In this document: piece by piece, positions 8,736-44,398 of the stretch
How the letters are laid out: every line of letters starts with the position of its first letter
Position numbering within the stretch: the stretch's first letter is position 1
NCBI RefSeq assembly: GCF_000143965.1
Contig: NC_014365.1
Location: forward strand, 2,445,501-2,509,500
DNA length: 64,000 nt
Reading direction: 5' to 3'
DNA from: Desulfarculus baarsii DSM 2075
Lineage (GTDB): Bacteria > Desulfobacterota > Desulfarculia > Desulfarculales > Desulfarculaceae
Notes under the pieces: generated by a model
What the model was told of the DNA's origin: nothing
The model's input: only the letters and a program-made list of their open reading frames with translations
The model's database searches: none
Translations under genes and position numbers: made by a program

Positions 8736-9968
8736 CTAGCCCTTGGTTAGTTCGGCTTCCTTGGGGAAAATCGGCAGATACCGATACGCCAAGGAATAGA
8801 CCAGGAAGCCGTAGCCGATGATCAGCAGACCCACGGCCACTTCCGGCCAAGTCGGCATGTAGGCCAAGAATTTCTCGAAGGGCAGCACCGGGATGGCCAA
8901 GCTCTGGACGGTGAACACGAAGCGGTTGAGCACCGCGCCGGTGCAGTTGAGCAGCATGGCCAAAAACAGCAGGCCGTAGCTCTGGCGGACCCTGGGCATG
9001 AGCAGCATGATCGCCGGCAACACGCCGCAGACGCCGAGTTCGGCCCACAGCAGCCATTCGCCGTATGGCGCCTGGTACATCACGTCCAGGCTGCCGCCGG
9101 CCTTGGGCACCAAGACCTTGGCCCAATAGTAGGTGTCGGCCAGCTTGAGGACCATGTAGGCGCTCAGCAGCAGGCCGCTGATCTTGCCCATGAGCATTTT
9201 GGTCTTGTGGGGCACCAGCTTGCGGCCGCTGACCTTCTCGGTGATCATCACGCACAGGGTGGTGAACGACGGTCCGGCGGCGATGGCGCTGAGGATGAAC
9301 AGGAAGAACGTCCAGGGCCAGATCATGAAGCCGTCGCGGTAGTCGAAGGGCCGGGCGTAGAGCACGCCGAACATGCCGCCCAGCGAGCCCTGATGGAAGA
9401 AGCTCAGGAACGTGCCCGTGCCGGCGAAGACGATCATGATCCGGTGCAGGTTGTGGGCGAAGGTGCCGATGGCCGGAACCTTGACCATCTGGCGGTTTTC
9501 CAGCACCGAAGGCAGCAGTTCGATGATCAGCACGATGGCGTAGGTGGTGATGCAGAACATGACCTCGGTGAGCATGGAGTGCACGTTGGCGTGCCAGAAA
9601 CCGAACCAACCGCGGATGGGCTGGCCGATGTCGATGCCCAGCATCATGATCGCGCCGGTGTAGCAGATGAAGCCGATGAGCACGGCCACGTTGACGATGT
9701 TCTTCAGCTCCTTGATCTTGAGGATATAGCTCAGGAAGCTGGTGAAGAACGCGCCCGCGCCCAAGGCGATCACCGCCAGGTCTACGACGATCCACAGACC
9801 AAAGGCGTAGTAGTCGTTCATGCCCGTCTGGTTCAGACCAAAGATCAGGCACATGAACGCGCCGATGGCGAAGAACTGCAAAATCCCGAGGCAGATCAGC
9901 ACCCAGAAGACAAACAACGCGGGATGCCCACGGGTTACGCCCTTTGGCCAGAATCTGGAATCATACAT
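8736..9968 (-). CDS. qrcD: Qrc menaquinone reductase, integral membrane subunit QrcD (NrfD family)
   Basis: A 410-aa NrfD/PsrC-family membrane protein with about ten predicted helices (for example HPALFVFWVLICLGILQFFAI, DLAVIALGAGAFFTSFLSYIL, VAVLIGFICYTGAIMMLGID). The family carries the quinone site and a proton path but no haem; in Qrc this subunit reduces menaquinone with electrons delivered through QrcA, QrcB and QrcC. Charged residues inside helices (GIDIGQPIRGW, MIIELLPSVLENRQ) fit the NrfD pattern. It is the fourth gene of qrcABCD, 38 bp after qrcC, with GGTTACC before ATG. Length and order match the Qrc complex of sulfate reducers rather than polysulfide or nitrite reductases, which lack this QrcA/QrcB pairing. 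Confidence 0.92.
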   Translation of the reverse strand: MYDSRFWPKGVTRGHPALFVFWVLICLGILQFFAIGAFMCLIFGLNQTGMNDYYAFGLWIVVDLAVIALGAGAFFTSFLSYILKIKELKNIVNVAVLIGFICYTGAIMMLGIDIGQPIRGWFGFWHANVHSMLTEVMFCITTYAIVLIIELLPSVLENRQMVKVPAIGTFAHNLHRIMIVFAGTGTFLSFFHQGSLGGMFGVLYARPFDYRDGFMIWPWTFFLFILSAIAAGPSFTTLCVMITEKVSGRKLVPHKTKMLMGKISGLLLSAYMVLKLADTYYWAKVLVPKAGGSLDVMYQAPYGEWLLWAELGVCGVLPAIMLLMPRVRQSYGLLFLAMLLNCTGAVLNRFVFTVQSLAIPVLPFEKFLAYMPTWPEVAVGLLIIGYGFLVYSLAYRYLPIFPKEAELTKG

Positions 9969-10006
9969 GGGTAACCTCGCTAACTTTCAAGAAACAACCC
10001 GTGGCC

Positions 10007-10876
10007 CTAGCCCTGCTGGCCGGCCACGGCCCGTTTGAAGTCCTCGTCCGAGACAAAGTTGTCGGCCAAACGACGGACCCACTCACGTTTGGTGGCGTAG
10101 AACACCTTGGTGTTGGTGCCCAGCCGCTCCAGCAGCCGGAAAACCATGTGACCGTCTTGCTGATACCTGGCGATGGCCTGCGCGACCTTGTGGTCGGGGT
10201 TGAGCAGGTCGCCGAAGATGATGGCCCCCGACGGGCAGGCCTCGGTGCAGGCGGTCTGGTAGTCGGCCTCGGCCATGTCCTCGCCGGTCATGAACGACTT
10301 GTTGCGGGCCTGTTGGTAACGATGGAAGCAGAAGGTGCATTTTTCGACGACGCCGCGCATGCGCGGAGACACGAACGGACTGAGGGCGCGTTCGGAGCCC
10401 TTGGGCCACGGCACGTCGAACCAGTTGAAGTAACGGGCGTGGTACGGGCAAGCCGCCACGCAGTACCGGCAACCGATGCAGCGGGTGATGATCTGGCTGA
10501 CGATGCCGGTCTTTTCGTCGTAGTCGGTGGCCGTGGCCGGGCAGACCGAGACGCAGGGCGTGTGGCTTTCGTGGGCGTCGGGGTCTTCGAAGAAGAAGCC
10601 GTCCTTGTAGCTGCCGGGCTTGCCGCCCTGGCAGTGCTGACACGGCCGGGGGAAGAAGGCCACCTCGGTGCCCGGGAAGCTCTGGCCGTTGTCGATCTGG
10701 TAGACCCGCAGCCAGGTTATGGAACGGACCTTGTCGGTCTCGTCGGCCAGCACGCCGCTGTTGTTTTCGGACATGCAGGCCACCGAGCAGGCCCCGCAGC
10801 CGGTGCACTTGTCCACGTCGATGAGCATGCCGAAGCGTTGCTCATCGGTATTGTAGAGCTTTTTCAGATCATACAT
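10007..10876 (-). CDS. qrcC: Qrc menaquinone reductase, iron-sulfur subunit QrcC
   Basis: A 289-aa periplasm-facing ferredoxin-type protein that relays electrons from QrcB/QrcA to QrcD. Cys motifs are abundant: DKCTGCGACSVACMSENN, PCQHCQGG, CVSVCPATATDY, RCIGCRYCVAACPYHARYFNW, CTFCFHRY and CTEACPSGAI, which fit three to four iron-sulfur clusters as in PsrB/NrfC-type subunits. No Tat signal is present, so it presumably travels with Tat-exported QrcB. Its ATG overlaps the qrcB stop by eight bases (translational coupling) and qrcD follows 38 bp later. Confidence 0.93.
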   Translation of the reverse strand: MYDLKKLYNTDEQRFGMLIDVDKCTGCGACSVACMSENNSGVLADETDKVRSITWLRVYQIDNGQSFPGTEVAFFPRPCQHCQGGKPGSYKDGFFFEDPDAHESHTPCVSVCPATATDYDEKTGIVSQIITRCIGCRYCVAACPYHARYFNWFDVPWPKGSERALSPFVSPRMRGVVEKCTFCFHRYQQARNKSFMTGEDMAEADYQTACTEACPSGAIIFGDLLNPDHKVAQAIARYQQDGHMVFRLLERLGTNTKVFYATKREWVRRLADNFVSDEDFKRAVAGQQG

Positions 10877-13010
10877 GGCTCACCCCCCCGATATTTCTCA
10901 GAGAGACCCGGGTCAGGCTCCAGTTGGGCAATCCGCTGAGGGGATCGCTCTCGACATTGACCGCGCGGTTGAAGTTGTCGCCCTTGCCGCCGATGAACTC
11001 GCCCAAGGCGGTGTGGCCCAGGCCCACCGGCACGAAGACCATGCCCGGTTGCGCGCCGGCGAACAAATGCACCGTGGCGTTGACGCCGCCGTGAGCGCCC
11101 ATCAGCTCCACGCGGCTACCCTCGGCCAGATGCATCTCCTTGGCAGTCTCGGGGTTGATCTCCACCACCAACTGGTCTTTGTGGGCCAGGGTGGCGTCGG
11201 TCAGGATTTTGATCATGTAGGGCGTGATCGGATCGCGGCCCCAGGTGGTGCGCAGCGAGGGGATGGCCTGCATGATCAGGCCGTGGCCATGACCGTGGGC
11301 CAGGGCCGCGGGCTCACGCCAATCCAGCCCGGCCAGATTGACGTTGGCCGCGCCGCCGTAGCTGGGTTTGTCCTCGGCCCAGAAGCCTTTGTTCTGGGCC
11401 AGTTCCTCGAAGCTGCCCAGGCCCGCCGCGCGGGTCTTGAGGGCCTCGAAGACGCTCTGCTGAGGCAGGGCCTGGGCCATCTGCCCGCCCATGGCCTTGG
11501 CCAGGGTCAGGAAGATGTCGCCGGTGGCCTTGGCCAGGGGCTCGCCGTTGATCAGCGGACGATGCAGGCCATAGAAGCCGGTGGCGCAGCCAAACGGCGT
11601 GGGGACGTCGCCCCAGCACTCCAGGAAGTGGGCGGCCGGCAAGACCAGGTCGGCCACGGCGGCGCTTTCGTCCAGATAAGGCGTGAGCGCCACCACGAAG
11701 GGCGTTTTGCGGGCCAGGCGCTCGACCAAAACGGCCTGGGGGCCGTTGAAGACCGGGTTGCCGCCGGCCAGGATCAAAGCGGCCAGGCTGTAAGGCTTGG
11801 CGCGCAGGGCGTTGACGGTGAGTGTATAGGGATCGTGGTCGCCAGCGGCCAGGGCCGGTTGGGTCGGGGTGGGCACGGCCGCGCCCAGGGGGGCCAACGG
11901 CAGAGCCTTGCGGGCGACGAGGCCGCCGGGTTTGCCCAGCTTGCCGGCCACGGCGTTGAGGGCCAGGACGGCCAGGAAGTCCTGCATGGCGCCAGGGCCG
12001 CCTTCGGGGCCAGGGCCACAGATGGCCACGCCGCTGTTGCTGGCGGCCAAGGCCAGGGCCACTTCCTTGATAGTGGCCGCGTCCACGCCGGTGTGCTCGG
12101 CCACGGCCTCGGGGGCGAATTTGGCGTCGGCCAGGCCGCCCGCGCTGACGGCGCTCTTACCGGCGGCGACGATGGCGTGGGCCATGGCCAGGGCCAGCAG
12201 GCCCTCGGTTCCGGGCTTGCAGGCCAGCCATTTGTCGGCCTGGCTGGCGGTGACCGAAGCGCGGGTGTCGACCTGGACCAGGGTGGTCTTGCCTTCCTCA
12301 CGCCACTTGGCGAAGGCCGCGCGCACGGCCACCGGCGAGCCCCAGCCCTCCAGCAACGGCGTGCCGAAGCTGACGACGTAGTCGGAGTTGGCCAGGTCGA
12401 AGCCCAGGTTTTCCTCGCCAAAAAGCCGCTTGCCGGCCAGGGCCAGGGTCTGTTGGGCCGTGGGCAGGAAAGCCAGGTTGGGCGAACCATAGGCGGTCAT
12501 GAAGCGACCGAGGATCTCGGAGGTCACGTCGCCGGAGGCCCCGGCCAGACAGGCCACGCGGTGGGCCTGGCCGCCCTCGGCCAGCTTGCCCAGGCGCTCG
12601 GCCAGAAGCTTCAGGGCGTCTTCCCAGCTCAAGCGGGTGAACACGCCGGTCTGGCGATTGCGCAGCATCGGCTGCTGCACGCGGGTCTCGTGATTGTAGA
12701 GCAACTGCAAGGCCGAGGCGTCGGCCGGAATCAGGCCTTCGCCCAGCGGGCTGGCCGTGGCGCCTTCCAGGCGGATCAGGCGCTCGCCCTGCATGCGGCC
12801 CTGTATGACGCGGGCCTGCAAGACCGTCCCCGTGGAGGGATTGACCGTGCTGGCAAAGGCCAACGCGCCGTCTTCCGGCACCGGAACCCAGTTCCAGTTC
12901 TGGGTCCAGATGGCCGTGTCGTCCATCAGTTTCCAAACGAGCGGGCTGAAGTGTATGCCGATCACTCCGCCCACCACGAACTTGACAAAGGATCGTCTAT
13001 CCAAGGTCAT
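10869..13010 (-). CDS. qrcB: Qrc menaquinone reductase, molybdopterin-oxidoreductase-like subunit QrcB
   Basis: A 713-aa protein of the molybdopterin oxidoreductase superfamily. It begins MTLDRRSFVKFVVGGVIG, a clear twin-arginine signal with no signal-peptidase site. The large-subunit fold is visible (LSWEDALKLLAERLGKLAEG, CLAGASGDVTSEILGRFM, a C-terminal MoCoBD region VEINPETAKEMHLAEGSRVEL). However, the N-terminal Cys motif that holds a [4Fe-4S] cluster in true molybdoenzymes is absent, in line with reports that QrcB lacks cofactors and is structural. I chose the ATG at 13010; upstream in-frame residues are Arg-rich and unconserved. It lies 26 bp after qrcA. Confidence 0.94.
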   Translation of the reverse strand: MTLDRRSFVKFVVGGVIGIHFSPLVWKLMDDTAIWTQNWNWVPVPEDGALAFASTVNPSTGTVLQARVIQGRMQGERLIRLEGATASPLGEGLIPADASALQLLYNHETRVQQPMLRNRQTGVFTRLSWEDALKLLAERLGKLAEGGQAHRVACLAGASGDVTSEILGRFMTAYGSPNLAFLPTAQQTLALAGKRLFGEENLGFDLANSDYVVSFGTPLLEGWGSPVAVRAAFAKWREEGKTTLVQVDTRASVTASQADKWLACKPGTEGLLALAMAHAIVAAGKSAVSAGGLADAKFAPEAVAEHTGVDAATIKEVALALAASNSGVAICGPGPEGGPGAMQDFLAVLALNAVAGKLGKPGGLVARKALPLAPLGAAVPTPTQPALAAGDHDPYTLTVNALRAKPYSLAALILAGGNPVFNGPQAVLVERLARKTPFVVALTPYLDESAAVADLVLPAAHFLECWGDVPTPFGCATGFYGLHRPLINGEPLAKATGDIFLTLAKAMGGQMAQALPQQSVFEALKTRAAGLGSFEELAQNKGFWAEDKPSYGGAANVNLAGLDWREPAALAHGHGHGLIMQAIPSLRTTWGRDPITPYMIKILTDATLAHKDQLVVEINPETAKEMHLAEGSRVELMGAHGGVNATVHLFAGAQPGMVFVPVGLGHTALGEFIGGKGDNFNRAVNVESDPLSGLPNWSLTRVSLRNIGGVSHV

Positions 13011-13036
13011 CGGGCTTTCTCCCAGATCCGAACCGC

Positions 13037-13669
13037 CTACTTGTGGCAGACGAAGCAGGCGTCGCGCACGCCGTTTTCGCGGTGACACGCGGCGCAATCG
13101 TCCATCTTCATGCGCTCCGGCGGCCCGCCCAGCCCAAGCAGGCTGCGGCCCCAGATGTCACGGCTGTAGCCGGTGAGGCGGTTGTATTCATAGGGACGGA
13201 GGTTGTCGGTTTCGCCGTGCGTGCCGTGGCAGGTGGCGCACTCCAACTCGGCGTTCTTCACGTGGGCCACGTGGGAGAAGAACACGCAGTCGGGCTGACC
13301 GGAATAGACATCCCAGGCAATCGGTTTGCCTTTGGCGATGTATTCCTCGGCCAGAATCCTTTCCGCCTCACGGTGCTTGGGGTTTTCGATGTTGTCGCCC
13401 ATGGCTTCCTCGGAGTGGCACTCTTGGCAGTTGGCCACCGCGGGGATGCCCGTGAACGAACCGTCCTCCCGGAAGGTGTGACAGCTCGCACAGCCGTCGC
13501 TCACCTGCTCCATGTGCACTTTGTGCGAAAAGTCCATCGGCTGCGTCTTTTCGGCGTAGAGAATCGTGGGCGTCAGCCAAAAACCGAAGGCCGACGCCAA
13601 GACGATCCCCAGGACGAAAAACAGCCAATCCGGGGGGGACTTCTTCTGTCCTTGCTCCTGCTTAGACAT
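13037..13669 (-). CDS. qrcA: Qrc menaquinone reductase, multihaem cytochrome c subunit QrcA
   Basis: A 210-aa cytochrome anchored by an uncleaved N-terminal helix (DWLFFVLGIVLASAFGFWLTP), with the rest in the periplasm. Five CXXCH haem sites are visible: CASCH, CQECH, CATCH, CAACH and CFVCH, with FSHKVH and FSHVAH segments supplying distal His ligands. The family accepts electrons from the periplasmic type I cytochrome c3 and passes them to QrcC/QrcD. Desulfovibrio QrcA is, from memory, described as hexahaem, so this copy may have one fewer canonical site. It is the first gene of the leftward qrc operon; the promoter must lie in 13670-13905, where no strong consensus could be picked. Confidence 0.93.
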   Translation of the reverse strand: MSKQEQGQKKSPPDWLFFVLGIVLASAFGFWLTPTILYAEKTQPMDFSHKVHMEQVSDGCASCHTFREDGSFTGIPAVANCQECHSEEAMGDNIENPKHREAERILAEEYIAKGKPIAWDVYSGQPDCVFFSHVAHVKNAELECATCHGTHGETDNLRPYEYNRLTGYSRDIWGRSLLGLGGPPERMKMDDCAACHRENGVRDACFVCHK

Positions 13670-16187: not shown

Positions 16188-16210
16188 CAGCCGCTCGCCG
16201 AACAAAACGA

Positions 16211-16239
16211 CCCCGGCCCAAACTCTGGGCCGGGGTTTT
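16211..16239. terminator. Rho-independent terminator
   Basis: CCCCGGCCCA pairs with TGGGCCGGGG across a five-base loop and is followed by TTTTG. It ends the Cache-protein transcript and, since the minus strand reads TCGTTTTG after the hairpin, also the metF operon. Confidence 0.9.
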
Positions 16240-16253: not shown

Positions 16254-17177
16254 CTAGAGCTGCGGCCGGGGCAGGAGCCCGGCGCCGTCAATGATCTCGC
16301 GGGCGCGGTGCTCCCACTCGATGGCCATGACGTGCACGCCGGCCACGCCGGGCATTTCGCGCAGTTGGCCGATGGCCTCGATGCAGATGCGAATGCCCTC
16401 GGCGGCCTGGTCTTTTTTGTCCACGCCCTGCATGCGCTTGATCAGGGCCTCGGGCACGTCCATGCCCGGCACGAACTTGGCCATGTACTTGGCCATGCCC
16501 ACTGATTTAAGCGGCGTGACCCCGCCCAGGATGAAGCATTTTTCGTGCAGGCCCCGGTCCACGGCCCGCTTCATGTATTCGCGGAATTTATCCATATTAT
16601 AGATGCACTGGGTCTGGACGAAATCCGCGCCGGCCTTGATCTTGTTGGCCAGGCGTGAGACGCGGAAAGCGAAGGGATCGCCAAAGGGGTTGACCGCCGC
16701 GCCGATGAAAATCTCGGGCGCGCCTTCCAACTCCTTGTCGTTCAAGAATTTTTTCTCGTCGCGCATCTTCTTGAACGTGGCCAGCAGTTGCACGGAGTCC
16801 AGGTCGTGGACGTTTTTGGCCTCGGGGTGATCGCCAAAGCGCTGGTGGTCGCCCGACAGGCACAGCACGTTTTTGATGCCCAGGGCCGTGGCCCCCAGGA
16901 TGTTGGCCATCAGGCCCAGGCGGTTGGCGTCACGGCAGACCATTTGCAGGTTGGGCTCCAGTCCCTGGTCCAGGATCAGCTTGCAGGCGGCCCACGAGGC
17001 CATGCGCACCACGGCGGTCTGGTTGTCGGTGATGTTGACCGAATCCACCGCGCCCAGCAGATGGGCGGCTTTTTTGCGCACTTCATCGGCGTGGTTGCCC
17101 CGGGGCGGCCCCAGCTCTCCGGTCACCGCGAAATGGCCGGCCCTGAGCACTTTTTCCAGATTGCTGCCCGCTTTCAT
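16254..17177 (-). CDS. metF: Methylenetetrahydrofolate reductase (MetF)
   Basis: A 307-aa TIM-barrel flavoprotein that reduces 5,10-methylene-THF to 5-methyl-THF. Family segments are clear: VTGELGPPRGN near the N-terminus (catalytic Glu), VDSVNITDNQTAVVRMASWAA, NVLCLSGDHQRFGDHP, GAAVNPFGDPFAFRVSRLANKIKAGADFVQTQCIYNMD and FILGGVTPLKSVGMAKYM. It overlaps metV by four bases (ATGA), the standard metVF pairing of acetogens and other Wood-Ljungdahl organisms, where MetF and MetV form a complex that takes reductant from HdrA- or Rnf-type partners. The hdrA-like gene is immediately upstream in the same operon. Confidence 0.96.
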   Translation of the reverse strand: MKAGSNLEKVLRAGHFAVTGELGPPRGNHADEVRKKAAHLLGAVDSVNITDNQTAVVRMASWAACKLILDQGLEPNLQMVCRDANRLGLMANILGATALGIKNVLCLSGDHQRFGDHPEAKNVHDLDSVQLLATFKKMRDEKKFLNDKELEGAPEIFIGAAVNPFGDPFAFRVSRLANKIKAGADFVQTQCIYNMDKFREYMKRAVDRGLHEKCFILGGVTPLKSVGMAKYMAKFVPGMDVPEALIKRMQGVDKKDQAAEGIRICIEAIGQLREMPGVAGVHVMAIEWEHRAREIIDGAGLLPRPQL

Positions 17178-17848
17178 AGCTTGAGGTCCTCCCTGATCCG
17201 CCGACGCGGCCCACCGTCACGGGCGGTGATCCAGTTTTTCACCGGCCAGACCCGCTCCAACTCCTCGGCCCGGCCCATGCGTTCCATTTTTTCGACGATC
17301 AGATGCCAAACGCAGTCCACCTCCGGGCCGATCTCGCACTTGCCGCCGGCCGAACCACCGCAGGGGCCGTTCATGAGGCTTTTGCTGCAACGGGCGATGG
17401 GGCAGAGCCCACCGAAGTGATGCACCAGGCAGTCGCCGCACGATTGACAGCGCTCCGACCACATGCCGTGGGCCAGCGCGCCGCCGATGAATGTGGTGTT
17501 TATGCCCGGAAACACCGGCGCTTTGGGGTAGCGTTCGCTGACGAACTGGGGCCCCACCCCGCAGGCGATGGAAATGATGGCGTCGTAGCCCTCGGCCACG
17601 TCGGCCAGTTCCTCGATGTATTCAGGATCGCACTGGCGCTCCAGGGTTCTTTCGTCCACCGTCGGGGCCAGGCCGCGCTTTTTGCGGGCGATGCGCAGGG
17701 CCGTGGCCAAGACGCCCACCTCCTTTTCGCCGCCGACGTTGCACACCGTCACGCAGCCCCTACAGCCCAGCACCAAGACCTTGGGCCGCCCCTCGATCAT
17801 TCGCAGAATCTCTTCCAGCGGTTTCGCGTCGCCTACGATCATATCCAA
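17174..17848 (-). CDS. metV: MetV, methylenetetrahydrofolate reductase zinc/iron-sulfur subunit
   Basis: A 224-aa member of the MTHFR C-terminal (MetV) family. It has an N-terminal CRGCVTVC, a central AIISIACGVGPQFVSERYP, and a Cys cluster CQSCGDCLVHHFGGLCPIARCSKSLMNGPCGG, which carry iron-sulfur and zinc. In acetogens MetV receives electrons and passes them to MetF's FMN. The gene overlaps metF by four bases and follows the HdrA fusion by 45 bases. Confidence 0.93.
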   Translation of the reverse strand: MDMIVGDAKPLEEILRMIEGRPKVLVLGCRGCVTVCNVGGEKEVGVLATALRIARKKRGLAPTVDERTLERQCDPEYIEELADVAEGYDAIISIACGVGPQFVSERYPKAPVFPGINTTFIGGALAHGMWSERCQSCGDCLVHHFGGLCPIARCSKSLMNGPCGGSAGGKCEIGPEVDCVWHLIVEKMERMGRAEELERVWPVKNWITARDGGPRRRIREDLKL

Positions 17849-17893
17849 ACCACCTTCCCGGCTCTGGTCGAACCCGTGACGCGGCGGGCGGGG

Positions 17894-20800
17894 TCAGCCC
17901 ATGGCCGCCATTTCCTTGGCCAAAATCTGCGCGTCGGTATAGTGTTGCAAGGTGATGGCCTTGCCCGGACACTCGGCCGCGCAGGCCCCGCAACCATAAC
18001 AAGAAGCCACCTCGATATAGGCCGCGCCGTCCTTGATCTTGGGCACGCCGTAGGGGCAGGTGCGCACGCAGGTCAGGCAGACGGCGCACTTGGCCGGATC
18101 GACGGTCGCCACCACGCCGCCGACGCGGATGGCCTTGCGGGCCAGGACGGTCAGGGCCCGGCCCACGGCGGCCTCGGCCTGGGCGATGGCCTCGTCGATG
18201 GGCTTGGGATAGTGGGCCAGGCCGGCGATGTAGAGCCCCTCGCTGGCCAGGTCCACCGGGCGCAGCTTCATGTGGGCCTCGAGGAAAAAGCCCTCGCCTT
18301 GCAGCGGGGCCTTGAACACCTCGGCCAAGGGGCCCACGGCGTTGGGCGCGATGGCCGAGGCCAGCACCAGGCGGTCCACCTCCAGCTCCACCGGCCGGCC
18401 CAGGACGTGATCGCGGGCGCTGATGGCCAGCTTGTCGCCGCGCTGTTCGACCAGGGGCTTGTGCTCCAGATCGTAGCGGATGAACAGCACGCCAAGTTCC
18501 CTGGCCCGGCGATAGAGATCCTCGCGCACGCCGTAGGTGCGGATATCGCGGTAGAACACATAGACCTGGGCCGTGGGGTTTTGCTCCTTGATGGCCACGG
18601 CGCTTTCCATGGAGTGCGTGCAGCACAGCCGGCTGCAATAGGGCCGCGCCGGCTCGCGCGAGCCCACGCACTGGATAAAGGCCACCGCCGCGAGCTTGCT
18701 CGCCAGTTTGGGCTCGCCCTTGAGGCTGGCGTCCCACTCCAGGGAGGTCAGCACCTGGTCGCTTTGGCCATAAAGATATTCCTCGGGCCTGGTCTCGCGG
18801 CCGCCGGTGGCCATGATGGCCACGCCGAAGTCGATGGGCGTCTGGCGGCCGGCCGAATCGCCGATGGCCCCCTTGAAGTTGCCCACGAAGCCCTTGCAGG
18901 CGCTGACCTGGCTTTCCAGGTGCAGGGTGATGTTGGGGCTGTTGTGGACCTTGGCGATGAGGTCTTCCAGATAGGGCTTGATGGGCTCGCCCTTCCAGGT
19001 GACCAGCAAATGATGGGCGTTGCCGCCAAGTTGCGATGTTTTTTCGACAAGATGCACCGGATAGCCCGCCTCGGCCAGGCTGAGGGCGGCCGTCATCCCG
19101 GTCACGCCGCCGCCGACCACCAGCGCCGCCTTGGTCAGGGGCAGCTCCACCTGATGCAGCGGCCGGGTCAGGGCGGCCTTGGCCACGGCCATGCGCACCA
19201 GATCCTTGGCCTTGTCGGTGGCCTTTTGAGGCTCTTGCTGGTGCACCCACGAGTCTTGATCGCGGATGTTGGCCATTTCGAAGAGATATTTGTTCAGGCC
19301 CACCTCGCGGATGGTTTCCTGGAACAGGGCCTCGTGGGTGCGCGGCGAGCAGGAAGCCACCACCACCCGGTTGAGGTTGTGCTCCTTGATGATCTGCTTG
19401 ATCTTGTTCTGGGTGTCTTGCGAGCAGGTGAAGAGATTGTCGTCGACAAAGGCCACGTGGGGCAGCGTGGCGGCGTATTGGCGCACGCCGGGCACATCGA
19501 CCACGCCGCCGATGTTGATGCCGCAGTTGCAGACAAACACGCCGATGCGCGGCTCCTGGTCGTCGATATCCAGCTCGGCCGGATATTGCAGCTCCTTGGT
19601 CAGCGTGCCACGGGCCTCGGCCAGGCCCTTGACCGAGGCTCGCGCCGCCGCCGAGGCCTCCATAACCGCCTGGGGGATGTCCTTGGGCCCGGCGAAACAG
19701 CCGCAGGCGTAGACGCCCGGCTGGCTGGTGCCCACCGGCAGGAAGGAGCTGGTGTCGCTGAAGTTGTAATGGGTCAGCTCCACGCCCAGGCGCTGGGCCA
19801 GCTCCACGGCCTCGGCGCCGGTTTGCAGGCCCACGCTCAGCACCACGATGTCGAAAAGCTCGCGCTTGGGGTTGCCGTCCTCGTCGACGTATTCGATGGA
19901 GAGCATGCCCTCCTCGGCCGGATCGACGCTGTGGGCCCGGCAGCGGATGAAGCGCACGCCGTGCTCCTGGCGGGCGCGGTCGTAGTATTTCTCGAAATCC
20001 TTGCCGTGGGTGCGCATGTCCATGTAAAAAATGGCCGTGTCCAGCTCGCCAGGGGAGTGCTCCTTGGCGATGACCGCCTCCTTGATGGCGTACATGCAGC
20101 ACACCGCCGAGCAATAGCCGTTGTCGCAGTGGTTGATATCGCGGGAGCCCACGCACTGCAACCAGGCGATTTTCTTGGGCTCAACGCCGTCGCTGGGCCG
20201 CTGGAGATGGCCCTGGTAGGGCCCCGAGGCGCTCAGCACCCGCTCGAACTCCATGGCCGTGACCACGTTGGGGTGGCGGCTGTAGGAATATATGTCGAAC
20301 TGGCGGGGGTCGTAGGCGTCGAAGCCCGGGGCCAGGATGACGCTGCCCACATTGAGGTTCAGCTCATGGGGCAGTTGATCGTGGGCCGGGGCCTTGGCCT
20401 GGCAGGCCTCCACGCACTGGTAGCAATCGCAGCAAACGGCGCAGTTGAGACAGCGCTCGCCCTCGGCCTGGCCTTGCTCGGGGCTCAGGCCCAGCTCGAA
20501 CTCGACGAAATCGCCCTTGCGCTCGGCGGCCGGCCGCAGGGGCATCACCGGGCGGGCGGCCTTGGCCAGGTCGTCCGGGATGGGGTTGTGGCGTGGCTTG
20601 TCGCCCAGCTCCAGCTTGCTCCGGCCGTGGGCCAGGTCTTGGCCATCGAGCAGACGCGTGATGCTGATGGCCGCCTCCCTGCCGGCGGCCACCGCGCCGA
20701 TGGCGATCCACGGCCCGCTGACCGCGTCGCCGCCGGCGAAAACGCCGGGCCGGCTGGTGGCCATGGTGATGGGATCGGCCTTGATTGTGCCGCGCGGCGT

Positions 20801-22327
20801 CAGCTCCACGCCCGAGTTCTGGCCCAGAAACTCCAGGTTGGGCCGCTGGCCGATGGCCGTGACGACCAGGTCGGCGTCGATGTCGCTGGTCTGGCTTTCG
20901 TCGTATTGCGGCGCAAAACGGCGGTTTTCGTCGAAAACCCGCGTGACTTTTCTGAGCGTCAGGCCCAGCAGCTCGCCTTGCGGGCCGCGCCGCACGGCGG
21001 CCACGCCCTGGCGGTGGATGAACTCCACGCCCTCTTCCAGGGCCTCGTGGCGCTCCCAGGGGCTGGCCGGCTGTTCCTCGGCCGACTCCAGCATGATCAT
21101 GCGCACCCGCTTGGCCCCGCGCCGCAGGGCCGTGCGCGCGCAGTCCACGGCCACGTCGCCGCCGCCGATGACCACCACGTCCGCACCGTCTGGCGGGTTT
21201 TGCCCCAGGGCCGCAAGCCGCAGATAGTCCAGCGCCGAAATGACTTGCGGGCCATCCTCGCCCGGCGCGCGCAGGGCAAAGCTGGCCGTGGCCCCCACGC
21301 CCAGAAACACCGCCCGAAAACCTTCGCGGCCCAGCAGGTCGTCGATGCCAAGCTCCGGGCCCAGGGGCGCGTTGAGCCTGATCTCCACGCCCATGTCGGC
21401 GATATTGTCGATTTCGCGCTGCAAAACGGCTTGGGGCAGGCGATACTCCGGCACGCCCACGGCCAGCGCGCCGCCGGCCACGGGCAGGGCCTCGAAGATC
21501 ACCGAGCGCACCCCGGCCCGCGCCAGGTGATAGGCGCAGGCCAGGCCAGCCGGCCCGGCCCCCACGATGGCCACCTTTTCCTCGCGCCAGGCCGCCTCGG
21601 GCTGGGCCACGTTCTCCACGCCGACCACGTCGGCCGCCAAGCGCTTGAGGTCGCGGATGGCGATGGCCTCATCCACCTCCAGCCGGCGACAGACGCTCTC
21701 GCACGGGTGCGGACAGACCCGGCCGATGGCCCCCGGCAAGGGCAGATCCTTCATGATGATGGCCAGGGCCTCGGCGAACTTGCCCTGCTTGGCCATCTGC
21801 ACGTAGCCCTGCACGTTGAGGTTGGCCGGACAGCTGACCTTGCAGGGCGCGGCGTCGAGCTTGGTGATGGAGTAGGCGTTGGGATAAGCCTGGGCATAGC
21901 GCTTGTAGATGGCCTTGCGTTGGCCCAACTCCTGATCGAACTCGTTGGGCACGCTGACCGGACAGACCTTGACGCAATCGCCGCAGGCCGTGCAGCTCTC
22001 CGAGGCGACAAAACGCGGGTTTTGCTCCACCCGCGCCACGAAATCGCCCGGCTTGCCGCTCAGCCCCAGAACCTGGGCGCAGGTGATTATCTCGATGTTA
22101 AGGTGCCGGCCGCACTCGACCAGCTTTGGCGAGACAATGCACATGGCGCAATCGTTGGTTGGAAACGTCTTGTCCAACTGGGCCATGCGCCCGCCGATGG
22201 CCGGCGACTTCTCGACCAAATAGACGTAATACCCGCTGTTGGCCAGGTCCAGCGACGCCTGAACGCCGGCGATGCCCGCGCCGACGACCATCACCGCCCC
22301 GACCTTTTTGTTTTCTCCGCTGGCCAT
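17894..22327 (-). CDS. Giant HdrA-type flavoprotein fused to a GltD-like NAD(P)H module
   Basis: A 1477-aa soluble electron-transfer protein. Residues 1-80 are an HdrA-type FAD start (VVGAGIAGVQASLDLANSG) with Cys in CAMCIVSPKLVECGRH. Residues 110-125 bind [4Fe-4S] (CTACGDCVKVCPVS). From about residue 155 it is GltD-like: PCKVSCPANLNVQGYVQ, then GRVCPHPCESVCRR and an FAD/NAD(P) domain KVAIVGAGPAGLACAYHLA. A second HdrA half follows (CDNGYCSAVCCMYAIKEA, GVFVCNCGINIGGVV, VVASCSPRTHEAL, VVGGGVTGMTAALSLAEAG), and the C-terminus has two more clusters (CAVCLTCVRTCPYG, CYGCGACAAECPGKA). It precedes metVF by 45 bp. Together they could bifurcate electrons from NAD(P)H to methylene-THF and ferredoxin; this is inference. 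GGGGAGG precedes the ATG. Confidence 0.9.
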   Translation of the reverse strand: MASGENKKVGAVMVVGAGIAGVQASLDLANSGYYVYLVEKSPAIGGRMAQLDKTFPTNDCAMCIVSPKLVECGRHLNIEIITCAQVLGLSGKPGDFVARVEQNPRFVASESCTACGDCVKVCPVSVPNEFDQELGQRKAIYKRYAQAYPNAYSITKLDAAPCKVSCPANLNVQGYVQMAKQGKFAEALAIIMKDLPLPGAIGRVCPHPCESVCRRLEVDEAIAIRDLKRLAADVVGVENVAQPEAAWREEKVAIVGAGPAGLACAYHLARAGVRSVIFEALPVAGGALAVGVPEYRLPQAVLQREIDNIADMGVEIRLNAPLGPELGIDDLLGREGFRAVFLGVGATASFALRAPGEDGPQVISALDYLRLAALGQNPPDGADVVVIGGGDVAVDCARTALRRGAKRVRMIMLESAEEQPASPWERHEALEEGVEFIHRQGVAAVRRGPQGELLGLTLRKVTRVFDENRRFAPQYDESQTSDIDADLVVTAIGQRPNLEFLGQNSGVELTPRGTIKADPITMATSRPGVFAGGDAVSGPWIAIGAVAAGREAAISITRLLDGQDLAHGRSKLELGDKPRHNPIPDDLAKAARPVMPLRPAAERKGDFVEFELGLSPEQGQAEGERCLNCAVCCDCYQCVEACQAKAPAHDQLPHELNLNVGSVILAPGFDAYDPRQFDIYSYSRHPNVVTAMEFERVLSASGPYQGHLQRPSDGVEPKKIAWLQCVGSRDINHCDNGYCSAVCCMYAIKEAVIAKEHSPGELDTAIFYMDMRTHGKDFEKYYDRARQEHGVRFIRCRAHSVDPAEEGMLSIEYVDEDGNPKRELFDIVVLSVGLQTGAEAVELAQRLGVELTHYNFSDTSSFLPVGTSQPGVYACGCFAGPKDIPQAVMEASAAARASVKGLAEARGTLTKELQYPAELDIDDQEPRIGVFVCNCGINIGGVVDVPGVRQYAATLPHVAFVDDNLFTCSQDTQNKIKQIIKEHNLNRVVVASCSPRTHEALFQETIREVGLNKYLFEMANIRDQDSWVHQQEPQKATDKAKDLVRMAVAKAALTRPLHQVELPLTKAALVVGGGVTGMTAALSLAEAGYPVHLVEKTSQLGGNAHHLLVTWKGEPIKPYLEDLIAKVHNSPNITLHLESQVSACKGFVGNFKGAIGDSAGRQTPIDFGVAIMATGGRETRPEEYLYGQSDQVLTSLEWDASLKGEPKLASKLAAVAFIQCVGSREPARPYCSRLCCTHSMESAVAIKEQNPTAQVYVFYRDIRTYGVREDLYRRARELGVLFIRYDLEHKPLVEQRGDKLAISARDHVLGRPVELEVDRLVLASAIAPNAVGPLAEVFKAPLQGEGFFLEAHMKLRPVDLASEGLYIAGLAHYPKPIDEAIAQAEAAVGRALTVLARKAIRVGGVVATVDPAKCAVCLTCVRTCPYGVPKIKDGAAYIEVASCYGCGACAAECPGKAITLQHYTDAQILAKEMAAMG

Positions 22328-22719: not shown

Positions 22720-24492
22720 TTAGAAGATGCCCTTGACCTTGCCGCTGTCGGTGTCGACGTCGATGCGGCGGAAGGCCGGGTTGGAGCCGGAGCCGGGCAT
22801 CAGGCTGATGGTGCCGGCCACGGGCACGACGAAGCCGGCGCCGCCGTAGGTCAGGATATCGCGGATGTACAGGCGCCAATTCTTGGGCACGCCCTTGAGG
22901 TTGGGGTTGTCGGACAGCGACAGGTGGGTCTTGACCATGCAAGTGCCCAGCTTGGACAGCTCGGGGTCGGCCTCGATCTTCTTGGCCTTGGCCTCGGCCT
23001 CGGGGCTGTAGTCCACGCCGTCGGCGCCGTAGACCTGCTTGGCGATCAGGTCGAGACGCTGACGCAGCGGGGTCTCCAGCTCGTAGAGCAGCTTGAACTG
23101 GTTCTCTTCTTCGCAAGCGTCCTTGACGGCCTCGGCGAACTCGATGGCGCCCTCGCCACCCTTTTCCCAGTGACGGCTGACGGCGACGCGGGCGCCGGCG
23201 GCCTCGCACAGCCGCTTGACGGCCGCGATCTCATTGGGGGTGTCGGTGTAGAAGCTGTTGACGCACACCACGGGGTTGATGCCGGCGCTCTTGACGGTGG
23301 CGATGTGGTGCAGCAGGTTGGCGCAACCCTTCTCGACCCACTCGACGTTCTCGCCCTGGTACTCTTTGGGCATGGGCTTGCCGGGCACCGGAATCGGCGC
23401 GCCGCCGTGGCACTTCAGGGCGCGGATGGTGGCGACCACGACCGCGCAATGGGGCTTGAGGCCCGAGTAGCGGCACTTCAGGTTCCAGAACTTCTCGAAG
23501 CCGATGTCGGCGCCGAAGCCGGACTCGGTGACGTGGTAGTCGCTGAGCTTGAGGGCGCAACGGTCGGCCAGGATCGAGCTCTGGCCGATGGCGATGTTGG
23601 CGAAGGGGCCGGCGTGCACGAAGACCGGCTGGCCCTCGATGGTCTGCAGCAGGTTGGGGTTGAGGGCCTCGTTCATCCAGGCGGTCATGGCGCCGGCGAC
23701 TTCGAGATCCTCGGTGGTGATGGGTTTGCCGGCGCGGTCATAGGCCACGACGATCTTGCCCATGCGCTCGCGCATGTCCTTGAGATCCTTGGCCACGGCC
23801 AGAATGGCCATGACTTCCGACGACACGGCGATGCCAAAACGCGACTGCATCAGGAAACCATCGCGGCGGCCGCCCAGGCCCATGACGATGTTGCGCAGGC
23901 CCTGGCAGCAGAAGTCGATGATCCAGCCCATCTCGATGTTGGTGGGATCGATGTTGAGGCGCTTCATGCCAGACAGGCGCTCGAGCTGCTCGTCGTTGTA
24001 GTTGCGCTCGTGCTGCAGGCGGGTGTTCAGGGCCACCATGGCCAGGTTGTGGGCGTTCATGATGGCGTTGATGTCGCCGGTCAGGCCCAACGAGAACGGG
24101 GTCAGCGGCACGCACTGGGCCAAACCGCCACCGGCGGCCGAGCCCTTGATGTTCATGGTCGGGCCGCCGGAAGGCTGACGGATGGCGGCGGTGACCTTCA
24201 GGCCCAGCTTGCCCATGCCCTCGACCAAACCCATGGTCGAGGTGGACTTGCCCTCGCCCAGCGGCGTGGGGGTGATGGCGGTCACGTCGATGTACTTGCC
24301 GTCGGGGCGATCCTTGAGGCGCTCAAGAACCTTCTTGTAGTCGACCTTGGCCACGTAATGGCCGTGGGGCAGCAGCTCTTCCTCGGTCAGGCCCAGATCG
24401 TCGGCGATCTTTTTGATGGGCTGCATGAACTCTTCGGCGGCCTCGGCAATCACGTAATCGGGATTTTTAGTGGGATCGGGCAGCTTAGGCAT
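22720..24492 (-). CDS. fhs: Formate-tetrahydrofolate ligase
   Basis: A 590-aa ATP-dependent enzyme that makes 10-formyl-THF from formate, the first step of the Wood-Ljungdahl methyl branch after formate dehydrogenase. The P-loop is [17 protein letters not shown], followed by the family segments [38 protein letters not shown] and [18 protein letters not shown]. The start at 24492 has GGGAGG eight bases upstream; a longer in-frame start at 24519 gives an unconserved N-terminus. The gene is flanked by terminators on both sides, so it is monocistronic. Its full-length size and intact motifs leave little doubt. The location next to metVF and HdrA makes a C1 cluster. Confidence 0.98.
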
Positions 24493-24577
24493 TAGAACAA
24501 CCTCCCTACAGCTACACAAGAAAGCAGGCCGCCTTGGGCGAGATTCCAGCGGAGCGCCGCCGACGGCCAGAACTAAT

Positions 24578-24846: not shown

Positions 24847-26889
24847 TCAAGCGGCGGCGGGCAGCTTGCCTTCGCGCTTGTAGCAGATCAAGCCGCAGTT
24901 GAGGCAACGCGAAGCCTCGGTCTTGGCCGCCCGCTCATCCAGGCCCAGCTCGATCTCCAGGCCGGCGTACACGCGGCGCTCGGGGGCCAACTCGGGCATG
25001 GGCTGGCGTTGAGGCGCGGCCAGCAGGTCGTCGAGCGCCTCGACATCCAGGGCGCAATCGGCCGAGCACAGCATCTGGGCCGGCGCGGCCACCGGACGCC
25101 CGCTCAGGGCCATGTGCGCCGAGGCCGCCGCCCGCCGGCCGGAGCCGATGGCCTCGACCACCGCCCGGTGGTCGGCCACCGTGGGCAGATCGTCGAACAG
25201 ATCGACCACCGGCCGCTCGGGCGGGCCATAGGGCCGCAGCGACCGCCAGTGCAGGGCCTCGTCATTGGCGTAGGGGTCGGCCTCCTGGCGGACAAAGATC
25301 AGTTTTGGCAGGCGGCCGCTGGCGATGATGATGGACGAAACGCCCTCGACGGCCTGGGGCTGATCGTCATCGCCGGCGATGACGTATTCCAGCCGCTCGG
25401 CGCGGTCTCCGCCGCCAAACAGGCCGGTCACCGAGGCCTCGAAAACGCAGTCGACGCCCTCGTTGGCCAGGGCCAGAAGCCCTTGAGCGTCCAGGCCCAA
25501 GGCCTCGCGGGTCTGGCGCAACAGCGCCAGCGCCCGGCCCGCGCCGCGTTGGCGGGCCTGGCGGGCCACGTTCAGAGCCTCCGCCCCGCCGCCGACGATA
25601 ACCACGTTGCGCCCCAGGTCAATGTCCTGGCCCTTGGCCCAGGCCATCTTCAGGGGCAGCATCAGGTGCAGGCCGGGCATGGTGCGCGGGGCCTTGCCGC
25701 CGCTGAGCATGGCGTCCCAGCCGCCCGAGGCCATTATCACCGCCTCGAAGCCCTCCTTGAACAGCTCGGGCAGATTGCAATCGCGGCCAAAGGTCTGGTT
25801 GAGCCGGGCCTCCACGCCCATTTCGAGGATGCCCTCGATCTCCCAGTCGAGCACCTCGCGGGGCAAGCGTTCGGCCGGCAAGGCCGTGCGCAGCATGCCG
25901 CCCAGCTTTTCGCCGGCCTCGAACACCGTGGGCGCGTAGCCCAGGCGGGCCAGGAAATAGGCCGCGGTCAGGCCCTCGGCCCCGCCGCCGATCACGGCGA
26001 CTTTGCGGTTTTTGGCCGGGGCCTTGTAGGGCTGGACGCGCTTGCCGCTTTGCATCTCGTGGTCGGCCAGAAAGCGCTTGATGTTGTCGATGGCCACCGG
26101 CTCGTCGACCTTGGCGCGCCGGCAGGCCGCCTCGCAGGGGCGCGGGCAGATGCGCCCGCAGATCAACGGCAGGGGGTTGCGCTCCTTGACCACGGCCAGG
26201 GCGTCGTCGTAGCGGCCCTTGGCGGTCAGATCGATGTAGCGGGCCACGTCGATGCCGGCCGGACAGGAGCGCTGGCAGGGCGCGGTGCACTGGTTGGGCG
26301 TGAATTCGCGCAAGATGCGGTTGGACACCGAGGTCAACCCGGCCGCGCCCATGGGGCAGACCCTCTCGCAGGTTCCGCAGCCGGTGCACAGGGCGGCGTC
26401 GACCTGGGGCAGGCCGTTGGCCCCGATCTGGATGGCCCCGAAGGGACAGTTGACCACGCAGGTGCCCAGGCCCAGGCAGCCCACCGGGCACTCCTTGGGC
26501 CCGCCAAAAAGCAACACCGCCGCCCGGCAATCGCGGATGCCGTCGTATTGATATTTCACGTCGGCGCTGGCCGTGGCGTAGCGGCAGTTGACGTGGGCCA
26601 CCACCGGTTCGCTCGCGCTCAGCGCCAGGCCGAGAATCTTGGCCACCTCGGCCTGCACCGCCGCGCCGCCACCCACGCAGGCGCTGGGCGGGATGCGCCC
26701 GGCGGCCATGGCCGCCGCCGCCGCCGAACAACCGGCCATGCCGCAACCGCCGCAATTGGCGCCGGGCAGAGCCTCCTCCACCGCCGTCACCAGCGGATCG
26801 ACCTCCACGGCGAATATCTTCGCGGCCACACCAAGGCCCACGGCGGCGGCCAGACCCAGGCCGCCAATCGCCAACGCCTCAACGATCAT
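24847..26889 (-). CDS. RnfB-like ferredoxin fused to a GltD-like flavoprotein
   Basis: A 680-aa fusion. Residues 1-30 are a hydrophobic anchor (EALAIGGLGLAAAVGLGVAA). Next is an RnfB four-Cys motif GANCGGCGMAGC ending at C71, then ferredoxin clusters CPVGCLGLGTCVVNCPFGAI and CTGCGTCERVCPMGAAG. From about residue 235 it is GltD-like (CTAPCQRSCPAGIDVARYIDL, GRICPRPCEAACRR, KVAVIGGGAEGLTAAYFLARLG, NVVIVGGGAEALNVARQ). The C-terminus CLNCGLICYKREG adds a last Cys pair. RnfB proteins normally sit in an rnfCDGEAB operon; none is visible here, so this is a stand-alone NAD(P)H/ferredoxin module. I preferred the ATG at 26889 over the frame's longer start because the anchor begins there. Other anaerobe genomes have similar proteins annotated as Fe-S-binding oxidoreductases. 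Confidence 0.85.
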   Translation of the reverse strand: MIVEALAIGGLGLAAAVGLGVAAKIFAVEVDPLVTAVEEALPGANCGGCGMAGCSAAAAAMAAGRIPPSACVGGGAAVQAEVAKILGLALSASEPVVAHVNCRYATASADVKYQYDGIRDCRAAVLLFGGPKECPVGCLGLGTCVVNCPFGAIQIGANGLPQVDAALCTGCGTCERVCPMGAAGLTSVSNRILREFTPNQCTAPCQRSCPAGIDVARYIDLTAKGRYDDALAVVKERNPLPLICGRICPRPCEAACRRAKVDEPVAIDNIKRFLADHEMQSGKRVQPYKAPAKNRKVAVIGGGAEGLTAAYFLARLGYAPTVFEAGEKLGGMLRTALPAERLPREVLDWEIEGILEMGVEARLNQTFGRDCNLPELFKEGFEAVIMASGGWDAMLSGGKAPRTMPGLHLMLPLKMAWAKGQDIDLGRNVVIVGGGAEALNVARQARQRGAGRALALLRQTREALGLDAQGLLALANEGVDCVFEASVTGLFGGGDRAERLEYVIAGDDDQPQAVEGVSSIIIASGRLPKLIFVRQEADPYANDEALHWRSLRPYGPPERPVVDLFDDLPTVADHRAVVEAIGSGRRAAASAHMALSGRPVAAPAQMLCSADCALDVEALDDLLAAPQRQPMPELAPERRVYAGLEIELGLDERAAKTEASRCLNCGLICYKREGKLPAAA

Positions 26890-27390
26890 CGTGACATACC
26901 CCTTGTATTGGTTTTCCTTCGGCGATATCGAAAAACCGCGAAAAAGCGAAAGTAGCCCGGCGTCGGGCCGCCACCCGGCGCCAAGCGGCAAGTAATTAAC
27001 TGATCAATGTTAACTCTTCACCATCGCCGTTTCAAACTCTTTTGTAACATTTTGCACAAAAACAGGTCCGAGGCCGGCCCCGCCAACAAATCAACGCGGG
27101 GCCATCAAGATAATACATGGATTTATCAAGCAAAAATTTGCGGCAATCTCCGTGACGCCCCTGCTGGACAGCGCCACGGCGCGCCGCCGCCCGGCGATGA
27201 ACAATGCCTCATTATTCAGCGAAAATTTGTTACCAACCATGCCGATAGCAAATATCGATCCGCGCCGCCCGGCGCACCGGCGGTCCGATCGGGCGCGCCG
27301 CGCGGGCTTTTCGTCGTGGCTAAAATTAATCGGCGCATCGCTTGACTGGAGGGGACATACCTCTATAATCCGATAGCCAAGAGGATGCCC
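26890..27390. other. Intergenic region between divergent genes, AT-rich
   Basis: About 500 bp between the RnfB-like gene and folE2. It is AT-rich compared with its surroundings and must hold promoters for both genes. No convincing consensus promoter, riboswitch or gene was recognised. AGAGG at 27380-27384 is the ribosome site for folE2. Confidence 0.5.
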
Positions 27391-35106: not shown

Positions 35107-35183
35107 GTCCTCGTAGCTCAGTAGGATAGAGCGACGGCCTCCTAAGCCGTAGGCCGCCCGTTCGATTCGGGCCGGGGACACCA
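35107..35183 (+). tRNA. tRNA-Arg (CCT)
   Basis: The cloverleaf folds: acceptor GTCCTCG with CGGGGAC, D arm TAGCTCAGTAGGATAGAGC, anticodon stem ACGGC/GCCGT around CTCCTAA giving anticodon CCT, TpsiC arm CCGTTCGATTCGGG, and an encoded CCA end at 35181-35183. The 3' half is the insertion site of the mobile element that follows, and it stays intact. Confidence 0.95.
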
Positions 35184-37004: not shown

Positions 37005-38147
37005 TTACAAAACGTTCAGCGAGTCGCCCTCTGGATGCCGGGGCAAATTCTCGCGTTGGCGAATCTCGTTGGCGGTCATGACGCCCGCCTGGCGGGCAAT
37101 CTGGTAGCTTTGGAAGCGCTCAAGCGTTCCGGCCCGCAAAAGGTTGGCCGCGTTGTGCTCAAAGTAAAGGCCGGCCGCCCGCTCGCCTTCGGTGAGCAAC
37201 TGCAAGTTGAACCGGGCCTCAAGGCGGGTCAGCCAAGGCGTCAAGCTCAGAGTCAAAAATTCGTGGGCAAGCTGTTCAACATTATTGAAGCTCATGCGGT
37301 CCAAATGGCCCAGCAGGTGGACGGGCACGCGGAAGCATCGGGCAATTTCCTCAAGCGACCATTTCCACGTGGCCAGGGTTTCCGCGTCCTCGGAGCTTAG
37401 GCCGATCTGCTCGTAGGAAAGCCCGCCGTCCAGAATAACGGTCCGCCCCGCGCCGGCCGGGCCGCTGAAGCGCCGTTCCCAATCATCGCGCAGGCGCGCC
37501 GCCGCCTCTGGCGTAACGTCGCGGTCAGTCTTGAGCACGCCAGACGGCCGCGCCTGTTGCCGGAACAAAGCCGTGGTGTAGGCCCCCAGCACGTGAGGCA
37601 ACTCCATTGCCCGGCGCAAGGTGGCAATTGGCGAGACGCCGACAACGCCGTCGGTGGATAAGCCGCGAATGTGCAACACCTCGTCCTGGCCGTAGACCAC
37701 GGCCCGCTTTTCGTCGGCGTAGCGGTAGAGGATGCTGTTGTCCGGCTGGGGTTCGACCGCCACACAATCGGGCCGCAAAGGCCACAGGGCCACCACCTGG
37801 CCGGCCTGGCGCTCGACAAACACAAAGGCGTTGCCGCGCAGACACAAGCAGACCATCAAGAACTCGCGGAATTCGCCGCCGGTCTGGTAGGTATTTGGCC
37901 GGTGGCGCATCAGGTCTTGCAAAACATGATCGTCGGCCCGCTCGCGCCCGCCGTCGGCCCGCTTGCGGTACAGGTCCAAAGGCATGGCCGCGATGGTTTC
38001 CGACAGCACGCGAACGCATGCATATACCGTCGGAATGCCCAGGGCCATGTTTTCCGAGTAGCCCTCGAAGCTCTCACCGCGTAGCCACGTGGACGTGGGC
38101 GACTCAGCCTTGTAGCGCCGCATGCCCAGCTTCTGCAACAAACCCAT
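37005..38147 (-). CDS. Phage portal protein (HK97 type)
   Basis: A 380-aa portal that forms the dodecameric DNA-entry ring of the capsid. It has family segments VYACVRVLSETIAAMPLDLYRK, YADEKRAVVYGQDEVLHIRG, GVSPIATLRRAMELPHVLGAY and the C-terminal LLTEGERAAGLYFEHNAANLLRAGTLERFQSYQIA. Its size is near the minimum for HK97-type portals, so the wing and stem are compact. It follows the capsid gene by 50 bp, which holds a strong hairpin at 38165-38188. No connector or tail genes follow. Confidence 0.93.
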   Translation of the reverse strand: MGLLQKLGMRRYKAESPTSTWLRGESFEGYSENMALGIPTVYACVRVLSETIAAMPLDLYRKRADGGRERADDHVLQDLMRHRPNTYQTGGEFREFLMVCLCLRGNAFVFVERQAGQVVALWPLRPDCVAVEPQPDNSILYRYADEKRAVVYGQDEVLHIRGLSTDGVVGVSPIATLRRAMELPHVLGAYTTALFRQQARPSGVLKTDRDVTPEAAARLRDDWERRFSGPAGAGRTVILDGGLSYEQIGLSSEDAETLATWKWSLEEIARCFRVPVHLLGHLDRMSFNNVEQLAHEFLTLSLTPWLTRLEARFNLQLLTEGERAAGLYFEHNAANLLRAGTLERFQSYQIARQAGVMTANEIRQRENLPRHPEGDSLNVL

Positions 38148-38164
38148 GGTTCATCCTCCAGGGC

Positions 38165-38188
38165 GGGGCCGCCCCGAAAGGCGGCCCC
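38165..38188. terminator. Hairpin between capsid and portal genes
   Basis: GGGGCCGCC pairs with GGCGGCCCC across CCGAAA. It lacks a clear T run on the minus strand, so it may reduce read-through or be processed rather than terminate fully. A nearly identical hairpin lies near the element's right end (44910-44931). Confidence 0.5.
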
Positions 38189-38197
38189 TTCCACGAT

Positions 38198-39913: not shown

Positions 39914-40004
39914 CTCATCTCCTTGTTCTGAAAACAAAAGCCGGCCAGGCTTGCGCCCGCCGGCCGTCTTGCGGCTCTGTCGTTTTGGGGTTATAATTTA
40001 AGAT

Positions 40005-41627: not shown

Positions 41628-41632
41628 GCTAA

Positions 41633-43884: not shown

Positions 43885-44024
43885 CGCTCGCCCTCCTTGA
43901 CCAGCAGCCGATCCAAGGCCAGGCTGGCCTGGCGGTCAAAGGGCCGATCGACGGCCCGCTCCAGCCACCGGCGGCGCAGGCGGCCAAAAAAACGCTTGAC
44001 TTTTGCCCAGCGTTCGGCTATCAT
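43881..44024 (-). CDS. Small basic protein of the satellite
   Basis: A 47-aa, strongly basic protein (IAERWAKVKRFFGRLRRRWLERAV). AAGGA lies eight bases before the ATG, and its stop overlaps the PrimPol start by four bases, so it is likely translated and coupled. An amphipathic helix with Arg clusters suggests nucleic-acid binding. No family is recognised. Confidence 0.6.
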   Translation of the reverse strand: MIAERWAKVKRFFGRLRRRWLERAVDRPFDRQASLALDRLLVKEGER

Positions 44025-44084
44025 ATTGTTATCCTTTCTTTTTGATCTGTGGGGCCGCTGGTGTTGGCGCACCAAAGGCCCCGT

Positions 44085-44318: not shown

Positions 44319-44342
44319 CATCCTTCGCGCCTCCAAAACAGA

Positions 44343-44373: not shown

Positions 44374-44398
44374 CGCAAAAGGTTGTGGTGTCAGGCGG

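Follow-up and report, generated by a model that had tools for sequence, protein, structure and literature searches.

Three genes on the minus strand of Desulfarculus baarsii DSM 2075 encode an HdrA-GltD-HdrA fusion flavoprotein, MetV and MetF, and on balance we favour the reading that this operon specifies a reduced type IV (Hdr-linked) methylene-THF reductase. The fusion would be the NAD(H) partner of MetVF, with one bifurcating flavin, a mainly methyl-THF-oxidising role and a second carrier. The type IV enzyme of Moorella thermoacetica was reportedly described by Mock et al. in 2014 as a MetFV-HdrABC-MvhD methylene-THF reductase. In the window, the 64,000-nucleotide stretch analysed here, the gene order is fusion, metV, metF. 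The fusion gene (17894-22327, minus strand; 1477 aa, 159 kDa), identified from its ORF and family matches, is separated by 45 nt (17849-17893) from metV (17174-17848; PF12225, 2.9e-35), which overlaps metF (16254-17177; PF02219, 1.5e-38) by 4 nt (ATGA). Upstream on the same strand lies fhs, encoding formate-THF ligase (22720-24519; PF01268), a conserved upstream neighbour of the fusion in Desulfarculaceae. Consensus scans predicted minus-strand terminator-like hairpins 3' of fhs (22656-22627) and 3' of metF (16210-16236), as well as a promoter-like site upstream of the fusion gene (22620-22593); these signals are consistent with a three-gene operon. The initial annotation had likewise placed the fusion in one operon with metV-metF, and the gap, the overlap and the flanking hairpins are in keeping with this. 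The range it gave, 17174-22327, takes in the fusion and metV and leaves metF just outside.

Two type IV traits are present: MetV and MetF are both encoded, and HdrA is encoded in the cluster, as the fusion directly upstream of metV with its HdrA family match. No gene for an RnfC-like subunit, the RnfC2 trait of type III, occurs in the fusion-metV-metF unit, and the Rnf-like protein closest to it is a fusion of RnfB and GltD (24847-26991). Neither hdrB nor hdrC adjoins the operon, and both are also missing from the clusters of the same fusion clade. The operon holds no mvhD; the 45-nt gap stands where relatives carry a gene of ~400 nt. MetV had no similar solved structure by sequence.

The 1477-aa reading frame, already proposed in the initial annotation, is a real gene. 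Its composition is that of coding DNA (GC3 0.88 versus GC2 0.45), and a 1712-aa ORF on the opposite strand was rejected as its shadow. A chance ORF is excluded because dozens of genomes encode homologues with 53-74% identity along the whole protein. HdrA-family models (Pfam/NCBIfam) match the fusion in four pieces that flank a GltD/PRK12771 match at residues 152-651. Together with the alignment, these matches uphold the earlier description of a GltD-like NAD(P)H module and iron-sulfur clusters within one polypeptide.

The domain anatomy is that of an HdrA split by GltD and followed by a second HdrA unit. Residues 1-155 (21863-22327, minus strand, as for all parts of the fusion) comprise the first half of the HdrA FAD (TrxR-like) domain and the first CxxCxxCxxxC motif of the inserted ferredoxin, as indicated by phmmer and a structural match. 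The GltD-like FAD and NAD(P)H module, with LES, K228 and R296, occupies residues 156-560 (20648-21862), and residues 561-920 (19568-20647) supply the second ferredoxin motif and the remainder of FAD domain 1, including E695 (20243-20245) and K749 (20081-20083). In phmmer comparisons, fusion residues 13-156 match HdrA 5odc_A 147-290 and 8rvu 155-297, and residues 632-852 match 5odc_A 293-513. Since the two stretches of 5odc_A adjoin, GltD sits between the two cluster motifs of the inserted ferredoxin. An AlphaFold2 prediction for residues 1-920 (pLDDT 88.9, pTM 0.82) agrees with the sequence in placing GltD within this domain: HdrA is matched by model residues 5-906 (Z about 48, ~425 residues, 1.6-2.1 Å), and the insert 157-642 matches NfnABC/StnC (Z about 48.7-50, 473 residues, ~2 Å). 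Sequence comparison and alignment assign residues 924-1477 (17897-19558) to the second HdrA unit, which consists of an N-terminal domain (C933, C935, C968, C993), FAD domain 2 and a C-terminal two-cluster ferredoxin. The earlier picture of two HdrA halves thus holds insofar as HdrA lies on both sides of GltD, but the parts are unequal: the first is an FAD domain with the inserted ferredoxin and without the HdrA N- and C-terminal domains, and the second is an HdrA without the inserted ferredoxin. The cysteine motifs of the clusters are conserved in nearly all of the 76 full-length fusions aligned. Judged against the published description, the order Fd/FAD-GltD-FAD, then N-terminal domain-FAD-C-terminal Fd, is Moorella-type (PMC9430772).

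In the HdrA of M. thermolithotrophicus, bifurcating flavins are marked by E356 and K409 (PMC9430772). The fusion carries E695 and K749 at these positions in FAD domain 1, and D1199 and E1241 in FAD domain 2, where the E/K pair is lost. FAD 1, with its E695/K749 pair, is likely to be the bifurcating centre, and the flavin of GltD and FAD 2 probably act as simple relays. In the GltD module, K228 is invariant (76/76 fusions); the equivalent lysine of StnC ligates the cluster beside a non-bifurcating FAD (PMC10482914). The second Rossmann strand of this module ends in LES where NADPH enzymes carry YRR, which suggests a preference for NADH.

A simpler possibility is that the fusion is a non-bifurcating NADH:MetVF oxidoreductase that only relays electrons, like RnfC2 of type III, and that its E/K signature is silent. 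Electrons passing from NADH (-320 mV) to methylene-THF (-200 mV) run downhill and need no bifurcation, and type III enzymes carry out this transfer. The absence of bifurcation features from two of the three flavins and of HdrBC and MvhD from the operon also fits such a relay. However, E695/K749 is invariant in all 76 fusions, simple transfer would not call for such a large number of centres, and Moorella HdrA-MetVF alone does not couple NADH to methylene-THF. We therefore regard a pure relay as unlikely.

The distribution of the fusion places these features in context. Of 60 related genomes, most encode a full-length fusion. In a scan of 84,980 species, each represented by a single genome, the best 80 loci came from Desulfobacterota, Latescibacterota, Chloroflexota, Planctomycetota, SAR324, Calditrichota and one Bacillota genome. 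The partners vary, from mvhD-metVF to hdrC-hdrB with mvhD-metV, mvhD-Flx and others. The fusion is thus not dedicated to MetVF, as it pairs with Flx and other partners too. In the tree, the D. baarsii protein lies beside those of other Desulfarculaceae, within a strongly supported clade whose fusions are linked to MetVF and lack hdrBC. Among named genomes, Desulfarculus MAGs are the closest to D. baarsii. The synteny (often fhs -) fusion - mvhD - metV - metF was seen at every locus with a downstream metV match (39/39, representing about 37 distinct loci, as some genomes were drawn twice).

Across the alignment, the second flavin covaries with hdrBC. A second E/K pair is present in nine fusions, which all belong to one clade and are each directly preceded by a match to hdrC or hdrB-hdrC. 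The clade of the D. baarsii fusion, without hdrBC, has D with E or Q in the second pair, except for one D/D row. The association of hdrBC with the second E/K pair (6/8 against 3/68) gave a Fisher p of 1e-5, which overstates the significance, as the rows are related. This pattern bears on the proposal that MvhD, and possibly HdrBC, is borrowed from other loci and that a full Moorella-type complex is assembled in trans. The genome does offer candidates, with HdrB/HdrC homologues elsewhere and three stand-alone mvhD genes whose products are 42-64% identical to the cluster MvhD of relatives. Against it, hdrBC is missing from the clusters of the clade, FAD 2 lacks the signature that accompanies hdrBC, and the best stand-alone MvhD is a paralogue rather than a moved gene. 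Assembly in trans accordingly seems quite improbable.

The missing mvhD sets D. baarsii apart. The gene adjoins the fusion in all MetVF-linked relatives examined whose flanking sequence was long enough, and, to judge from these sequences, it has been lost in D. baarsii only. In the close relatives read (12/12), the cluster mvhD contains an in-frame TGA at a position that encodes Cys in more distant ones, and its product is probably a selenoprotein. Loss of selenocysteine decoding was rejected as the cause of the mvhD loss, given the presence of SelB and tRNA-Sec in the genome. Relocation was also rejected: the closest stand-alone copy (mostly 55-64% identical to the cluster MvhD) has a 71-75% identical counterpart in relatives, and it is a paralogue because the relatives with this counterpart keep their cluster mvhD as well. 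Without the cluster MvhD, electron transfer could be impaired or could depend on MvhD from elsewhere, which counts against our preferred reading.

The operon might instead be decaying, the loss of mvhD having made fusion-metVF redundant with a second metVF cluster. Such a cluster, metF-like - hdrA (1011 aa) - mvhD - metV - metF, lies ~75 kb away; it is complete and could be the main methylene-THF enzyme of the genome, a point that also weighs against the reading of a reduced type IV enzyme. The restriction of the mvhD loss to D. baarsii agrees with decay. Yet all three proteins of the operon are intact, their cofactor and cluster residues are conserved, and their coding composition is normal, so decay appears very unlikely.

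The genome contains aprBA-qmoAB (APS reductase/Qmo), recognised from sequence, and also fhs and the CODH/ACS subunit CdhC/ACS. The host is most likely a sulfate reducer that uses the Wood-Ljungdahl pathway and not an acetogen. As aprBA-qmoAB point to a sulfate reducer, the methyl branch probably operates for the most part in the oxidative direction. The initial annotation had proposed an NAD(P)H-driven, possibly bifurcating reductase; the NAD(P)H module that it described stands and a conserved bifurcation signature is present, whereas the main direction is probably oxidative and the fusion is not reserved for MetVF.

Starting from the observed gene association and anatomy, we infer a complex that would work as follows. 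MetVF would interconvert methylene-THF and methyl-THF, mainly in the direction of methyl-THF oxidation. The fusion would connect MetVF to NAD(H) through the GltD module in the inserted ferredoxin, the expected low-potential exit of HdrA; electrons have been described as leaving HdrA through this ferredoxin (PMC12350162). FAD 1 would bifurcate, and the GltD flavin and FAD 2 would relay. The step from methyl-THF (-200 mV) to NAD+ (-320 mV) is uphill and would therefore have to be paid for by the second carrier, menaquinone or reduced ferredoxin. Payment could take the form of confurcation with reduced ferredoxin (PMC6295475) or of coupling to menaquinone (-74 mV), as proposed for Moorella in 2026 (PMC13391211). 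With an NAD(H) module at the low-potential exit of HdrA, menaquinone may fit slightly better, because NAD+ would be the low-potential acceptor. The most pared-down form of the enzyme would be MetVF plus one flavoprotein, without HdrBC and MvhD, its NAD(H) site wired to the low-potential port of the single bifurcating flavin and the methyl-THF electrons split between NAD+ and menaquinone; we regard this version as quite improbable.

The coupling of type IV methylene-THF reductases and their second carrier were still being worked out in 2026 (PMC13391211, PMC13040438), and no test object would be simpler than a three-gene system in which a single flavin is predicted to bifurcate. The co-occurrence of the second E/K pair with hdrBC also yields a concrete prediction of which flavin does what. 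Our search of the open-licence literature found no account of a clade that lacks hdrBC and keeps a single signature pair, of its MvhD with a probable selenocysteine, or of the mvhD loss in D. baarsii.

For Moorella, both the fused architecture and its association with MetVF have already been published, contrary to the earlier assumption that known complexes have only separate HdrABC/MvhD or Rnf partners. HdrA of Moorella thermoacetica (162.8 kDa, 1487 aa), encoded in a metVF cluster, consists of Fd, an FAD domain interrupted by GltD and an HdrA-like C-terminal part, with 8 FeS, 3 FAD and 1 NAD(P)H site (PMC9430772). Compared by published description only, it resembles the D. baarsii fusion in domain order and content, near-identical length and metVF linkage, and the first signature pair is in register (E696/K750 versus E695/K749). 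The two systems differ in that hdrB, hdrC and mvhD are in the Moorella cluster and absent from the D. baarsii operon, and in FAD domain 2 (E1204/K1246 versus D1199/E1241). HdrA oxidises NADH in both Moorella and Sporomusa, and pull-downs tie it to MetF/MetV in Sporomusa (PMC9430772, PMC8760232). In vitro, the Moorella complex showed neither NADH-methylene-THF coupling nor use of ferredoxin, which also counts against our preferred reading. The Sporomusa ovata HdrA-MvhD-MetVF system shares the tie of HdrA to MetVF and keeps E/K only in the first of two FAD domains; unlike the fusion, its HdrA has no GltD, and the system has HdrBC and MvhD and is membrane-associated. By description, HdrL of the sulfate reducer Desulfobacterium autotrophicum is a similar HdrA-GltD type (HdrA/glutamate synthase) fusion with mvhD adjoining, but HdrL1 sits with dsrABC (PMC2702500). 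The large subunit of StnC/NfnABC has a comparable GltD-like module with a C-terminal cluster and, in StnC, the Lys cluster ligand, but it differs in its YRR motif and belongs to other large multi-cluster subunits (StnC is fused to NuoG/FdhF-like domains). Sulfate reducers are known to carry HdrA genes next to genes of the Wood-Ljungdahl pathway (PMC10553843), and Poudel et al. described MetFV-MvhD sets that are not co-localised with HdrABC (PMC6085437).

All 12 close relatives (loci L068-L079) carry an in-frame TGA in the mvhD gene of the fusion-mvhD-metVF cluster (for example, L070:11480-12070), within the context CCxY[TGA]AYSAADLAG, whereas mvhD in loci L080-L083 has Cys at this position. 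Because of this difference, the cluster MvhD of L068-L079 is a probable selenoprotein. Second HdrA-GltD-HdrA fusion copies of Desulfarculaceae (for example, G014:C21:25214-29605 in a related genome) also contain one in-frame TGA, so that these copies are probably selenocysteine-containing HdrA fusions; a metV match adjoins one of them. Across fusion clades, the GltD module's NAD(P)H motif alternates between LES/LEN, found in most Desulfarculaceae fusions, and YRR, found in many others (L077 and L108 among them), suggesting that NADH/NADPH preference changed repeatedly.

A second cluster in the window genome (L065 7294-13330; G000:C1 about 2383300-2389300) comprises metF-like, hdrA, mvhD, metV and metF genes, its 1011-aa HdrA lacking GltD. 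Directly upstream of fhs, the window encodes a 714-aa protein (24847-26991, minus strand) with an RnfB-like N-terminus and a GltD-like module; close relatives carry instead, near fhs, a divergent GltD-like and FlxA-like pair. In window 37005-46387, near a tRNA (35107-35180), a transposase-like gene accompanies prophage-like genes (portal, major head/protease and terminase large subunit).

A Qrc-like operon (window 8736-13669, minus strand) encodes an NrfD-like membrane protein, an Fe-S protein, a molybdopterin-type protein and a small cytochrome-like protein with CxxCH. Elsewhere in the genome (L066 1038-8836; G000:C1 about 1094000-1101800), aprBA-qmoAB-like genes are followed by hdrC-hdrB-like genes in the expected place of qmoC, an arrangement found in Gram-positive sulfate reducers.
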